A stretch of 64,000 bases of DNA from Chelatococcus sp. YT9. GTDB lineage: Bacteria > Pseudomonadota > Alphaproteobacteria > Rhizobiales > Beijerinckiaceae. Below the pieces are notes generated by a model. That model saw nothing but the letters and a program-made list of their open reading frames with translations, was not told where the DNA came from and made no database searches. The stretch covers positions 2,488,501-2,552,500 of the forward strand of contig NZ_JAHBRW010000001.1 in the NCBI RefSeq assembly GCF_018398315.1, written 5' to 3'. The position numbers and the translations under genes were made by a program. The first letter of the stretch is position 1. Each line of letters starts with the position of its first letter. Shown piece after piece: positions 9,914-53,204 of this stretch.

Positions 9914-10091
9914 ACTGGAGAAGGACTGCGCCGACACCGTCTCTTTGCCCAAGCGTAGGCTCGCACAGCACGAAGTCGAGCGCCTTTGGGGGCAGGACCG
10001 CGCCAACCTTGTCGAGTGCGGGGAGGGCAAGGCCGCCCTGCGCGACTTCTACCGGGACAGGGATACGCGCCTGTCCCCGAAAGCTTCATGA
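9801..10091 (+). CDS. o-spanin (Rz1-like outer-membrane lipoprotein)
   Basis: 96 residues. A signal peptide ends in a lipobox (LTAAC, lipidated Cys20), followed by a Pro-rich stretch (QPPVLRPPPAELEKDC), as in Rz1 proteins. Starts 113 bases inside the i-spanin gene in the +1 frame. The product should sit in the outer membrane and bind the i-spanin coiled coil. Longer than lambda Rz1, with extra cysteines (CADT, VECGEG) in the C-terminal half. Confidence 0.75.
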   Translation: MRQIKILCAMLAVLALTAACGSTKFVAQPPVLRPPPAELEKDCADTVSLPKRRLAQHEVERLWGQDRANLVECGEGKAALRDFYRDRDTRLSPKAS

Positions 10092-10399
10092 TGGAATTTT
10101 CTTTCCTATTCGGGGCCGTCTCGGCCTGCGTGGCCGTTGTTGGCGCGATCGCCGCTGCGCTGCGCCATCAGCACAACCAGATCCGAGCGGTGCAACAGGA
10201 CGCGGCACACGAGATCGACGCCATTCGGGAGCAGGTGACCGCAACACGCCGGGCGCTGACCGAATTTCAGGTCGAAGTCGCCAAGAACTACACGACCAAC
10301 AGCGTCATTCAGCAGGTCGAGGACAGGCTTGTCGCCGCGATCAACCGCATCGGCGACCGCCTCGATCAAGCCTTCGACAAGCTCGCATCCCGACAGTAA
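10088..10399 (+). CDS. membrane-anchored coiled-coil protein (103 aa)
   Basis: 103 residues. One N-terminal membrane helix (FLFGAVSACVAVVGAIAAAL) precedes a long amphipathic coiled coil (HQHNQIRAVQQDAAHEIDAI and onward to the end). Its start overlaps the o-spanin stop. It might be a second holin or antiholin, or a regulator of lysis timing. No family recognised. Confidence 0.62.
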   Translation: MMEFSFLFGAVSACVAVVGAIAAALRHQHNQIRAVQQDAAHEIDAIREQVTATRRALTEFQVEVAKNYTTNSVIQQVEDRLVAAINRIGDRLDQAFDKLASRQ

Positions 10400-10410
10400 C
10401 GGAGGGCCTT

Positions 10411-11055
10411 ATGCGCAAGCCCCTATATCGTGCGGCTCAGATCTTCGGCGCCGCGTGCGCTGCCGTGCTCATCCTCGCCCTTCTCGCTTTCTCCGCCCCC
10501 GCTCATGCCCCGGCACCTACGGCCGGCGCGGTCGTCTATCTTGGTGACACGCATGGCCACGGGTCGGGCGTTCACATCGGCGACGGCTACATCCTCACGG
10601 CCGCGCACGTTGTGCGCTCCGAAAAGACGATGCCCGTTGTTACGGATGACGGGACTACGGTCGAGGGTGCCGTGCTTTGGGCGAGCCCCGAATACGACGT
10701 GGCCCTCATCCGCGCGCCTGTGAATGCGAAGGCGGCACCGCTCGCCTGCCGCGAGGCGAAGGTTGGCGAAGAGATCCGCGCCTCCGGCAACCCGTATGAC
10801 CAGAAGTTCGTCACGGCTCGAGGCCACGTAAGCGGAGCCGCTCGCGAATACGAGCCGTGGAAACGCGTGCTCGTGATCGACACGACGATGGTTCACGGTA
10901 TGAGCGGTGGCCCGACCTTTGACATGCAGGGCAACGTCGTCGGGATCAATGTCGGTGTAATGGTCGTGAGCCAGGGCATGGCGTCTTATGTCGCCAGCTT
11001 CGGCTACATCGTGCCCGGCTCGACCGTCTGCATGCTCATGGGTCGGGAGGATTGA
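10411..11055 (+). CDS. exported trypsin-like serine protease in prophage
   Basis: 214 residues. A signal peptide or anchor occupies about residues 1-30. The S1-type catalytic triad is visible: His in YILTAAHVV (about residue 66), Asp in EYDVALIRA (about 95), and Ser in MVHGMSGGPTF (about 167), with the family's downstream GIN...FGYIVPG. A GGAGGG ribosome-binding site lies 4-5 bases before the ATG. Its stop overlaps the start of the next gene by one base. A periplasmic protease is unusual in a lysis/late operon. It may act as a conversion factor in the lysogen or help lysis, which is inference. Confidence 0.85.
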   Translation: MRKPLYRAAQIFGAACAAVLILALLAFSAPAHAPAPTAGAVVYLGDTHGHGSGVHIGDGYILTAAHVVRSEKTMPVVTDDGTTVEGAVLWASPEYDVALIRAPVNAKAAPLACREAKVGEEIRASGNPYDQKFVTARGHVSGAAREYEPWKRVLVIDTTMVHGMSGGPTFDMQGNVVGINVGVMVVSQGMASYVASFGYIVPGSTVCMLMGRED

Positions 11056-12691: not shown

Positions 12692-12978
12692 CAGAGCCGA
12701 TGAGAGCGCAGATCCTCCGCCAGGGAATCGCGCTGACGTGTGGATCGCGGGATGAGGAATACGGCCCGCCCGCGGTCAATCTGGCCTGCGCTGGCGAGCT
12801 CAAGCGCGTGATCCGCAGATTTGCGGCCCGCGATATCAGCCCAGCCGAGCAGGAGGCGATCGATATGGTGATGACCAAAGTTGCGCGCGTGATCACCGGG
12901 CAACCCAAACCGGACACCTATGTCGACGGCGCGACCTACTTCGCGATCGCGGGTGAGGTGGCGCTGTCCGCACAGTAA
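12688..12978 (+). CDS. DUF6378 domain phage protein
   Basis: 96 residues. The pattern RDEEYGPPAVNL, then KRVIRRFAARDISPAEQEA, then VARVITGQPKPDTYVDGATY with a final AIAGEVAL matches DUF6378. This is a small all-helical family common next to nucleotide-metabolism genes in phages of Alphaproteobacteria. Function unknown. Overlaps the DUF1937 gene by four bases, so both belong to the same operon. It is the last gene before a 390-base spacer. Confidence 0.82.
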   Translation: MTEPMRAQILRQGIALTCGSRDEEYGPPAVNLACAGELKRVIRRFAARDISPAEQEAIDMVMTKVARVITGQPKPDTYVDGATYFAIAGEVALSAQ

Positions 12979-13184
12979 AGGTCAAGATGATAGGCAGAAA
13001 GTAGAAGAACGGTAGTATGTTACGCATGCAACACGGCGCGCTAACATAAAAAAGCTAAAACTTAGCAAAATAAAACGCCAGCTTTGCCGCACGAGACCGC
13101 GATTAGTTTCACCCCGCGACAAAATGTAACTACAGTGAACCAAATACCACTTTGAGTTCATTAACTTTTGAGACATATTCGAGG
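12979..13184. promoter_or_regulatory. AT-rich palindromic control region of the prophage
   Basis: The base composition falls abruptly to AT-rich in an otherwise GC-rich genome. Inverted repeats are seen at 13016-13048 (TATGTTA ... TAACATA) and 13054-13066 (GCTAA-aac-TTAGC). A possible promoter for the element downstream has TTGAGT at 13152-13157 and ATATTC at 13175-13180, 17 bases apart. No gene is supported. It is probably an operator and promoter region for what follows. Confidence 0.45.
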
Positions 13185-13335
13185 GGCTTGCGCGAAAAGG
13201 GTGCAAGCCGGGATTGGAAGCCCGACCGACATTGGACCGGCGCCGACCTATGGGTCAGGCGCCGCGGGAGAGCCTTGTGCTCTGCCGTGGTCCAATGCCG
13301 CGGTCTTCCAACCTGCGGTTGCCTGGCCCACCAGG
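13185..13335 (+). ncRNA. candidate structured RNA with three-way junction (prophage)
   Basis: Dense, nested complementarity. Hairpin A is 13185-13191 with 13203-13209 (7 bp). Then a stem: 13214-13220 with 13305-13311 (7 bp), 13225-13228 with 13301-13304 (4 bp), and 13230-13238 with 13289-13297 (9 bp, CATTGGACC/GGTCCAATG). It closes a junction with two arms: 13239-13248 with 13253-13263 (10 bp, one bulged A, TATG loop) and 13269-13273 with 13279-13283 (5 bp, plus CGG/CCG 13265-13267 with 13285-13287). A small hairpin lies at 13322-13335. Strand is inferred from the AT-rich promoter-like DNA on the left and the small gene on the right. I do not recognise it as a known family. It could be an sRNA or the leader of the gene at 13367. 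Confidence 0.5.
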
Positions 13336-13366
13336 GACGGGCGTTGGGGTGGGGGATGTCAAAAAA

Positions 13367-13555
13367 ATGGATACGGCGATGGAATGTGCGGCTCATGTCG
13401 CGCAAACGGAGGACTCTGAGTCTCTGCTGTCCGAGTTAGTGGATGCTATGTCTCTGGTCGGTCGAGATGGGCAGTACGTGCATGCTGAGGTCGCGATGTC
13501 GTTCGACCTTTACGGACGCCTATCTCGTTGGCTGGAGGGGGTACGTGCTTGGTAA
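13367..13555 (+). CDS. small hypothetical prophage protein (62 aa)
   Basis: 62 residues, acidic and helix-rich (SESLLSELVDAMSLVGRDGQ, VHAEVAMSFDLYGRLSRWLE). A purine-rich GGTGGGGG lies about 11 bases before the ATG, which is directly preceded by six A residues. The frame is open further upstream, but that part crosses the structured segment. No family recognised. It ends 9 bases before the end of the opposing SRAP gene. Confidence 0.5.
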   Translation: MDTAMECAAHVAQTEDSESLLSELVDAMSLVGRDGQYVHAEVAMSFDLYGRLSRWLEGVRAW

Positions 13556-13564
13556 TAGCGGAGA

Positions 13565-14290
13565 TCACGCACCGCCACCATCGTCCTGCTTCACGCCTCG
13601 GGCAACGATTTGCAGTGAGCCGTCCGGGAGTGGACGCTGTAGGTCCTTGGCCTCGCTCCAGGGCGCCCGCATCCAGATTTCCCGCTCCGCCTCGGTGGTG
13701 AGAATGACGGGCATGGCTGTGGGATGAATGGGAGCCACTTCGGCGTTCGCGTCCGTGGTCAGGAAGGCATAGAGGTCGGCTACCTCTAGTCCCTTCTTGA
13801 CCTTGCGCACGCTTGGCCAACGCTCGGTCCAGATGCCAGCGAAGAAGGCGAGCGGGCGCTCTTCGTTGAAGGCGAACCAGATATAGCCTCCAGCCTCTTT
13901 GTTGAACTCGCTGAATGATGTGAAGGGGACGAGGCAGCGGTTATCCGGCCCGAGCCAGCGCTGCCAGTGCTTGCTATCGGTTTTGCGGACATTAGTCGTG
14001 CCGCTGTCCGGCTCCAATTTCAGGAGCTCTTTGAAGTCGACGACCTGACCCTTGGCTTCCAGCTTCTCCGCGCGCTTCTTTGCTGCCTGCATCAGCGCGA
14101 ACTGCGATGACGGCATTCCCCAGCGGGCCAAAGCCAAGGCCCGCCCGTTCGGCCCATGGCGCACGATCGGTGCGGAATAGTCGGGGAAGACGCCCGGCAT
14201 GCGCTGGAGGTTGCCTGTGTAATCCTCGAAGGCCTTCGCCAGCTCGCGGATAGCCTGCTGGCCTTTGGTGACGGAGTAGAGATTGCACAC
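13565..14290 (-). CDS. SOS response-associated peptidase (SRAP / HMCES / YedK)
   Basis: 241 residues. SRAP proteins covalently trap abasic sites in single-stranded DNA through Cys2. The starting codon is GTG, giving M-C-N-L-Y; Cys2 must be exposed after removal of Met, which fixes this start. Other family residues are visible: Asn100 (GTTNVRKT), Glu128 (RCLVPFTSFSEF, variant of the usual FYEW) and His189 (PIHPTAMPVIL). The two upstream genes are on the same strand and overlap or abut, and a GTTC-N7-GTTC LexA site lies upstream of the operon. A shift in the usual R-x-E-T segment to NVRKT is a variant. Confidence 0.9.
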   Translation of the reverse strand: MCNLYSVTKGQQAIRELAKAFEDYTGNLQRMPGVFPDYSAPIVRHGPNGRALALARWGMPSSQFALMQAAKKRAEKLEAKGQVVDFKELLKLEPDSGTTNVRKTDSKHWQRWLGPDNRCLVPFTSFSEFNKEAGGYIWFAFNEERPLAFFAGIWTERWPSVRKVKKGLEVADLYAFLTTDANAEVAPIHPTAMPVILTTEAEREIWMRAPWSEAKDLQRPLPDGSLQIVARGVKQDDGGGA

Positions 14291-15137: not shown

Positions 15138-15186
15138 ACCGCTCATAACGGTCTGGTTGCAGGTTCGAGTCCTGCCGGGCCCACCA
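15138..15186 (+). other. attR: 3' fragment of a tRNA gene with CAU anticodon
   Basis: The anticodon loop CTCATAA (15142-15148, anticodon CAT at 15144-15146), anticodon-stem 3' strand, variable loop, T arm (GCAGG-TTCGAGT-CCTGC, 15159-15175), acceptor 3' strand CGGGCCC (15176-15182), discriminator A and encoded CCA (to 15186) are present. There is no 5' half: no GGGCCCG strand or D arm is found in the bases before it. It is therefore the displaced 3' end left by prophage integration in a tRNA-Met or related CAU tRNA gene. Identity with the intact gene should start near the anticodon stem. Confidence 0.85.
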
Positions 15187-15488
15187 ATGATTTCAAGTGC
15201 TTACCTGGACATGCGAACTTTCGCAGCGGTTTGCGGCAACGATAACGGCAATCGGTGTCAATGGACGTTCTGTTCCGTTAGTAGCCGCCACTATGAACGG
15301 AGCGGCATTCAAGCTGATCAGGCAATACCTTGCATGGTGGCGTATGAATGCCCGGCTTCGTCTTGCCGCAACTTCGCGATCACATGTGGCTATCCGCTTC
15401 TTGCGGTGCTCCGCTTTCACCGCTCATAACGATCAGGACTTTGGCGGCTGGCGCTGTATCATGCGCTCCAGACCCATTGGAGGATGCC
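15187..15488. other. 300-base spacer between attR and pirin, with a second copy of the att core
   Basis: No supported gene. The 15-base string tcaccgctcataacg (positions 15136-15150 at the tRNA fragment) recurs at 15417-15431. One plus-strand frame here (about 15221-15330) reads like a short piece of IS630-type transposase, too weak to call. The segment may be the scar of an earlier insertion at the same kind of site. Confidence 0.4.
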
Positions 15489-51961: not shown

Positions 51962-52352
<391 letters not shown>

Positions 52353-53204
52353 ACAACCGCTCTCCGCCCATTCCTTCTCGCGCCTTGCCGTGCGCATGGG
52401 CGGGACGGTGGCATTGCGTGCTGCGGTTCTGATTCAAAATGTCACGCCATCGCGTTGGGTGGGAATCATTTTTCGCTCGGTGGTGCCGTGCACGAAGCCC
52501 CTATCATCGCCTTCGCACCATGTGGCGTGGGGGTTAAGCGGTAACATCCGGCTGACGGCCTGGGATTGCGCCCCACAGAGCAGCGCGGGGCTCATGGGCT
52601 TCGGCCAGATCCACGCGCAAGTTCTTGCCACAGAATCGCATTTTCGCCCTGTCCGCCGTGCCATGACGTGATCACAGATGACATCCATGGTGATGATCTT
52701 GATTCAGTTTTCAATCTCAAGTGATTGAAAGATAATCAGTTTATACTGATTTAGGGCTGATGGCCGCAAGACGCTTCGGCGGCACACGGTTCGTAGTCAC
52801 AGCCCGCGCTCGTCCTCCAGGAAAGTAAATCCGCCCGGGTGCATCGCGCCTGCGTCGACCGACAGGTTAGCTGGCGATGGACGGCGCATTCCGACTGTCG
52901 CGATCTTGGCGGCCAGCGAGAGATGATCCTCGGCCGCGTGAGCTGCCATGGCTCGTGGTCCTGCGCAGCCTTTGAAAAAAAGTGACGAGATTTGGAGCGG
53001 CTTCCGCGTCGGAAGGCGTTGGACGGCAAGCCTTCGTTAACCTTGAAGGAGTGTCATGGCGGCTCCTGGGAGCCATCACCGGAACTCCCGATTCCATTGA
53101 CGACCATAAAATCCCATGCTATCCCAAATCATCCCGTCGACGGCGGGATTCTTAAGCTCAGACAAGGTGTTTGGCGCCTCCTGCGGGACTGGCGACAGGC
53201 CGTC
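52353..53204. other. long spacer between rnpB and mraZ
   Basis: About 850 bases with no recognisable gene, including two adjacent hairpins (52709-52751). The segment carries the rnpB 3' end and terminator region and, in its distal part, the promoter of the cell-division operon. Open frames crossing it are weak. Confidence 0.5.
52709..52751. repeat. two adjacent perfect palindromes, AT-rich
   Basis: TTTCAATC (52709-52716) pairs with GATTGAAA (52723-52730), followed directly by AATCAGT (52734-52740) and ACTGATT (52745-52751). The second includes TTATAC-like bases that could be a promoter -10 region. Two palindromes in tandem suggest a regulator-binding or RNA structural element. Confidence 0.5.

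Follow-up and report, generated by a model that had tools for sequence, protein, structure and literature searches.

A C4 antisense RNA at the attR end of a Chelatococcus prophage, probably in a derived stand-alone form

The C4 locus described here lies at the right end of a 33-kb prophage of Chelatococcus sp. YT9, in a spacer whose dense self-complementarity raises two questions, namely, to which kind of RNA it gives rise and on which transcripts such an RNA would act. The spacer, positions 13185-13335 of the 64,000-nucleotide stretch analysed (the window), had been described in an earlier note as an undescribed structured RNA of six stems, to which no known family appeared to fit. The coordinates of the features discussed below are collected in Table 1.

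Fold and family of the RNA

Thermodynamic folding of the plus strand of 13185-13335 gave a minimum free energy (MFE) of -90.3 kcal/mol, in comparison with a mean of -64.0 kcal/mol (sd 4.24) for shuffled copies. With a z score of -6.20 and none of 200 shuffles equally stable, a comparison of the kind that the earlier note had proposed showed the segment to be far more stable than its shuffled copies, and bore out its reading as a structured RNA. The MFE structure consisted of five helices rather than the six supposed. Its long interrupted stem (24 pairs, 13210-13238 with 13289-13314) agreed with the coordinates given for it beforehand and enclosed two hairpins of 10 and 9 pairs, and the 3' hairpin (13322-13335) was formed by five pairs. 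The stability of this structure does not prove that it is the functional fold. The minus strand was also stably folded (z = -5.65), as is expected from such complementarity, and the covariance-model matches to the locus described below, from both Rfam and R2, were on the plus strand.

When the window was scanned with all 4227 Rfam families, two matches exceeded their gathering thresholds: the RNase P RNA and, at 13246-13335, the C4 antisense RNA RF01695 (46.9 bits, gathering 45). The former, of the bacterial class A type (51963-52355, plus strand, 327.9 bits), presumably shares the window with C4 by coincidence. Since the margin for RF01695 was small, a second covariance model (R2) was made from 20 C4 RNAs, taken from viral contigs and from genera other than that of the window. 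R2 scored the window locus at 67.1 bits (E 1.8e-16, the calibration being rough), and the C4 of two other genomes of the genus, hereafter G015 and G055, at 67.0 and 64.9 bits; by Rfam, the C4 of G055 (L007) reached 42.2 bits, under the RF01695 gathering threshold. The alignment to RF01695 and the folding of C4 alone both located the three stems, the a' hairpin loop and the b' linker, and the same three-stem fold was returned in all 18 loci folded (one a duplicate).

These matches overturned the earlier statement that no known family fits. For a new, undescribed family, to which we accord scarcely any probability, it can be said that the RF01695 gathering threshold was exceeded by just 1.9 bits. 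Such a family was rejected on the RF01695 match itself together with the R2 score, obtained without the genus of the window, and the a'/b' and a1/b1 sites were placed as C4 predicts. The identity of the locus as a member of the C4 family is thus close to certain.

In phages P1 and P7, as described in passages of PMC5320573 and PMC8198154, RNase P cuts C4 from a longer transcript, and C4 blocks icd/ant via a'/b'. With these RNAs the window locus shares the three-stem core, the a' loop, the b' linker and the phage setting, as well as the GG with which the P1 stem begins and the upstream a1/b1 sites. It differs from them in that the next gene lacks b2/a2 and is a 62-aa ORF of no family, in that an antirepressor gene is not adjacent, and in the distance of only 7 nt between a1 and C4. 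Furthermore, it closes a late operon beside attR, whereas the C4 of P1 is placed in one operon with icd and ant1/2 (PMC8198154). With the c4-a1b1 motif (RF03163) it shares a b1 site within a CGGG hairpin followed by a1, directly before C4; the match to this model at 13173-13228 was weak (14.8 bits against a gathering threshold of 46.7, E 0.57). In passages of Weinberg et al. (PMC2864571), C4 is assigned to Proteobacteria and phages, and c4-a1b1 to gammaproteobacteria and phages.

Table 1. Features of the C4 locus and its surroundings (positions in the window)
Feature	Position	Strand	Evidence
Conserved upstream region, presumed C4 promoter (putative start ~13180)	13100..13184	+	80/85 (G015) and 76/85 (G055) identical
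5' hairpin, 9 bp, ahead of b1 hairpin	13185..13209	+	MFE; paired at every cell in 3/3 same-genus sequences; 3/9 pairs vary on one side
b1 hairpin CGGG-ATTGGAAG-CCCG	13209..13224	+	Sub-threshold RF03163 match
b1 target TTGGAAG	13214-13220	+	Exact complement of b' in 3/3 same-genus loci
a1 target CATTGGACC, exact complement of a'	13230..13238	+	9-base match in 3/3 same-genus loci; 3 compensatory pairs with a'
C4 antisense RNA core	13246..13335	+	RF01695 46.9 bits; R2 67.1 bits
a' recognition loop GGTCCAATG	13289..13297	+	Located from C4 alignment; co-varies with a1
b' recognition linker CTTCCAA	13305..13311	+	Linker of the C4 fold; exact complement of b1
Stretch holding b2 and a2 in other C4 loci, degenerate here	13336..13366	+	21/31 (G015) and 20/31 (G055) identical
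62-aa ORF at icd/ant position of other C4 loci	13367..13555	+	No family match
attR, 67-bp repeat with tRNA 3' end, right prophage end	15138..15204	+	Exact repeat of attL

Recognition sites, upstream partners and conservation

The 20-bp stem of the earlier note is the a'/b' pair of C4 joined to the upstream a1/b1 sites (13214-13238), with exact complementarity over 9 nt at a1 and 7 nt at b1. In a swap test on the three same-genus loci (window, G015 and G055), swaps matched the own pairs in 0 of 500 rounds for a1 and in 4 of 500 for b1; a b1 match taken singly is short and in many cases not significant (p = 0.056 in the window). Across these three sequences, 98.8% of the cells were found in standard pairs, and three pairs, all neighbours within a1:a', were changed on both sides (n = 3 sequences). 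From the window to G055 the changes were C-G to U-A, A-U to G-C, and U-A to C-G, such that the long-range pairing survived in the homologue through compensatory substitution. Six slid versions of the structure each contained no compensatory pair, and column shuffles reached three such pairs in 23 of 500 cases. With three sequences, the triple change of G055 may represent a single event, yet it is the expected one.

The end of a1 is separated from C4 by 7 bases in the window, G015 and G055, compared with 30-72 bases in most other loci. Folded without the leader, 13246-13335 adopted the alternative three-stem C4 structure (-54.3 kcal/mol, z = -5.5), and since a longer transcript pairs a1/b1 with a'/b', the RNA would possess two alternative folds. 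When leader and C4 were folded jointly rather than separately, the gain was 10.7, 7.9 and 7.8 kcal/mol in the window and the two other same-genus loci, and 10.1, 7.4 and 6.3 kcal/mol in the loci L006, L013 and L020 of other genomes. As some ordinary loci gain as much, a strong cis duplex does not set the group of the window apart. Given the spacing of just 7 bases between a1/b1 and C4, a transcript left uncut would prefer the cis duplex, and a1/b1 should therefore limit the activity of C4.

A search of the own genome for TTGGAAG N5-35 ATTGGA returned only a1/b1 and its antisense, with two matches also for the reversed control. For TTGGAAG N8-38 GCTGGA, four genomes of the genus contained 28 matches, two of which were the C4 locus of G055 itself; the reversed control had 27.

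Identity to the window was 89/90 (G015) and 84/90 (G055) for C4, and 29/30 and 27/30 for a1/b1, in comparison with 124/189 and 138/189 for the 62-aa coding sequence and 234/291 and 245/291 for the DUF6378 gene. Judging from these values and those in Table 1, identity is higher in the RNA and in the region upstream of it than in the flanking stretches. In G015, other prophage stretches were 94-98% identical and the SRAP side 90%, and prophage exchange may contribute part of the conservation in that genome; in G055, the late region was 80-85% identical and C4 93%. The AT-rich, promoter-like region that the earlier note had placed upstream was found to be conserved, while a simple scan of 12950-13700 with the sigma-70 consensus identified no sigma-70 promoter.

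Ordinary C4 loci and the downstream stretch

A comparison of 41 oriented loci revealed one shared arrangement, in which the upstream region is followed by the b1 hairpin, a1, a terminator-like hairpin, C4, b2 and a2. In ordinary loci, b2 lies directly 3' of C4, and a2 spans the Shine-Dalgarno of the next gene. When the three same-genus loci were set apart and L031 (a repeat of L020) was dropped, exact complements of at least six bases were present in the remaining 37 loci at b1 in 34, at a1 in 31, at b2 in 35 and at a2 in 31. After L240 (nearly L239) had also been dropped, none of 500 swapped rounds equalled the own pairs of the 36 loci, which comprise 18 distinct b' sequences, at any of the four sites. 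A strict scan detected a terminator-like hairpin ahead of C4 in 29 of the 36 (shuffles: mean 2.4, maximum 7, 40 rounds); it was used in place of a looser scan, which was positive in 35 of the 36. These other loci (e.g., L006, L012-L023, L025, L225-L243) have the same core as the window and often the same b', CTTCCAA, and differ from it in the frequent presence of b2 (35/37), a2 (31/37) and the hairpin before C4 (29/36).

The a'/b' pieces were cut by simple rules that fitted poorly in some loci (e.g., L006, L020). Scores below the RF01695 gathering threshold were obtained for L007 and, among the 20 loci of the order sample, for five (L237-L240, L243). Pattern matches proved to be C4 in 5 of 6 cases in one set and 3 of 9 in another; a further pattern search yielded at least 120 matches, and among 77 of its new loci that were searched, one (L166) was C4. 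Since L166 came from a pattern containing b2, it constitutes no independent evidence for b2, which is found in 34/36 loci without it.

Ten downstream proteins, picked by eye as antirepressor-like, all carried P22_AR_N, Bro-N, AntA, ORF6N, KilA-N or pRha, and in several ordinary loci no ORF of at least 120 aa started within 700 bases downstream. Through the hairpin between a1/b1 and C4 (L012-L023, L225-L243 and others), a1/b1 might act as an attenuator of the C4 operon that is under antisense control. A related idea for these loci is that C4, by binding nascent a1/b1, would determine how often transcription ends at the hairpin that precedes it, in an antisense-attenuation feedback.

In the window, the corresponding downstream sites were absent. 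The longest exact runs in the window, G015 and G055 were 5, 0 and 5 bases for b2 and 5, 6 and 4 for a2, and swapped pairs did as well in 300 (b2) and 105 (a2) of 500 rounds. In all three loci of the genus, b2/a2 over the ribosome-binding site of the next gene thus did not exceed chance. L238 was likewise without b2 and without a long a2. The hairpin with a T-run ahead of C4 was found in neither the window nor G055, and the match in G015 (L005) is apparently the 5' hairpin before a1/b1. No antirepressor gene is next in the operon, C4 being followed by the 62-aa ORF and then by a convergent SRAP gene. As the derived form was seen at one integration site in one genus, its three loci represent at most one event, not three.

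The 62-aa protein matched no family in PHROGs, Pfam or PADLOC, its structure model was poor (mean pLDDT 64.4), and back-translated patterns retrieved no relatives from collections of genome and viral contigs. Its homologues in G015 and G055 occupy the corresponding place, and there are also paralogues elsewhere. Those of the own genome are L037 (G000:C1:672746-672907, minus strand) and L040 (G000:C1:2174884-2175006, minus strand), both of which, by eye, adjoin an apparent divergent XRE-type repressor gene, L040 also adjoining an excisionase/integrase-like region; L038 and L039 are similar copies in G015 and G055.

The earlier note had considered a leader controlling this gene. In such a case, the a1/b1:C4 duplex and the C4 fold would be alternative structures that set transcription or translation into an icd-like 62-aa gene, much as C4 acts on icd-ant in P1. 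We regard this as rather unlikely. The gene does occupy the icd/ant position and has homologues there in both other same-genus C4 loci, and there is a weak a2-like GGCGTTGGG, in the window only (p = 0.033), as well as a G-rich stretch in L007 that is able to pair with b' (p = 0.053). The C4 silencing sites b2/a2, however, are at chance in the three loci and absent from G015, in which C4 is 89/90 identical; the stretch from C4 to the ATG is poorly conserved; a promoter/terminator scan of 12950-13700 found no terminator; and no C4 was found in the 3-kb stretches around the 62-aa paralogues. A leader controlling the 62-aa gene through these sites is thus not supported, although readthrough of the leader may conceivably exert some control.

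The same losses could be those of a C4-icd-ant operon in decay, left as a relic with no present function: b2/a2 are gone, the hairpin ahead of C4 is missing from the window and G055, and no antirepressor is adjacent. C4, a1/b1 and the upstream region, however, are better conserved than the neighbouring stretches measured, and a1 and a' have changed together, and we therefore assign the relic a low probability.

Prophage setting and proposed targets

The attL copy of the repeat is situated at contig position 2470247-2470313, inside a tRNA-Met gene; no tRNA was found inside the window. An integrase gene adjoins attL, a CI-like HTH-S24 repressor gene lies further inward, and a Bro-N antirepressor gene, divergent from the repressor, is located in the early region about 22 kb from C4. 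Ahead of C4 are genes for tail, endolysin, trypsin-like, exonuclease, DUF1937 and DUF6378 proteins, in agreement with the earlier placement of the RNA at the close of the prophage late operon, and the G015 and G055 loci adjoin the same tRNA end. With the own genome counted in each sample, C4 was detected in 3 of 4 genomes of the genus (2 above the cut-off), 4 of 397 of the family sample (the three same-genus loci and one of another genus), 17 of 397 of the order sample and 5 of 385 of the class sample. DNA like 13100-13560 was not found in 50,697 phage records.

Several side observations were made in and around this prophage. The trypsin-like protease of the late operon (10009-11055, plus strand) matched the PADLOC models RT-Protease_XI (2.8e-13) and LmuA (5.3e-08), probably owing to its protease domain. 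Beyond the window, in L044 (19574-19771, plus strand), a small ORF ends, by eye, one base before the start of the Bro-N gene, so that small ORF and antirepressor show an icd-ant-like layout without C4. Just left of the prophage, L044 8636-8735 (minus strand) gave a sub-threshold R2 match (16.6 bits, E 0.076), which is probably due to chance.

Taken together, the segment is probably best understood as a derived C4 antisense RNA locus that stands alone, is titrated by its own a1/b1 and acts in trans. Action in trans is most likely because the local b2/a2 are gone, and from the loss of the local target, together with the restriction of the own-genome pattern to a1/b1 and its antisense, we infer a free-standing, self-limited C4. 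By analogy with P1 and P7, a longer transcript would start near 13180, RNase P would cut it at the GG opening the P1 stem of C4, and the freed C4 would bind mRNAs through a'/b'. The GG at the start of that stem (from 13252) and the ACCA at 13330-13333 would, we assume, suit RNase P. Where the earlier note had thought of an RNA partner of some protein in the region, the host RNase P is presumably the partner to be expected from the C4 literature.

The most plausible targets would be the mRNAs for antirepressors of related phages that enter the lysogen, in which case the window C4 would serve as an immunity RNA; we judge the chances of such a trans-immunity role to be evenly balanced. A phage-database C4 locus, L078, has the a' TTCCAATGCC, which shares CCAATGCC with that of the window, and the a2 GCATTGGA just before a start codon, its b' differing by one base. 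A like specificity thus exists with a normal target. Of 54 viral loci selected because their a' contained TCCAATG, just two, L078 and L072, were C4 by R1, a model built from mostly alphaproteobacterial C4s that may miss others, and a further 162 pattern loci gave no R1 match; none of these viral loci represented a related phage with a fully matching target.

Within the own genome, the early-region Bro-N ORF (from contig position 2479773) was rejected as a target, no b or a site being present at its start; the best a' match nearby, at 2480272, falls within the coding sequence. By tblastn, the own antirepressor, repressor and integrase were found in the own prophage only, and not in the 44-kb G015 and 48-kb G055 stretches, which end short of the left prophage ends. 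In the 20 kb surrounding a P22_AR_N gene at 3920675 of the own genome, no C4 was found (R2 E <0.1).

Co-option of C4 against host mRNAs, e.g., that of the pirin-family gene beside attR, appears quite improbable. The Shine-Dalgarno region before the likely ATG of pirin contains CATTGGAGG (15475-15483), which is complementary to a' over 7 bases and is kept in both G015 and G055. In G055, however, a' has changed to GGTCCAGCA with the pirin site unchanged, no b partner was seen by eye at the site, and CATTGGA occurs at five places on the plus strand of the window. Host targeting does have a precedent among C4-like RNAs: for the Group 1 sRNAs of Acinetobacter baumannii, passages of PMC5320573 propose RNAs of incoming phages or of the host as targets. 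Action in trans is thus proposed both for those sRNAs and for the C4 of the window. The same passages describe 21 similar sRNAs in the A. baumannii genome and processing seen by RNA-seq, and name no a1/b1, whereas a single C4 was found here.

Returning to the stand-alone C4, a possible though doubtful extension is that a1/b1, fused to C4 at a distance of 7 nt without a terminator, form a self-inactivating precursor in which C4 would be held in an inactive duplex, and from which RNase P or a competing mRNA would free an immunity RNA that mainly silences the antirepressors of other phages.

No alphaproteobacterial C4 and no loss of b2/a2 was apparent in the open-licence literature, judged mostly by title; the family is already known, and the variant without b2/a2 would be new. 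In alphaproteobacterial genomes, the complete a1/b1 - C4 - b2/a2 switch can be seen among the loci compared, their recognition sites fitting the respective targets over 18 distinct b' sequences. A lineage that has apparently kept the RNA and its decoy and lost the regulated target would provide a natural experiment on the purpose of a1/b1 and on the capacity of C4 to function on its own as an immunity RNA.
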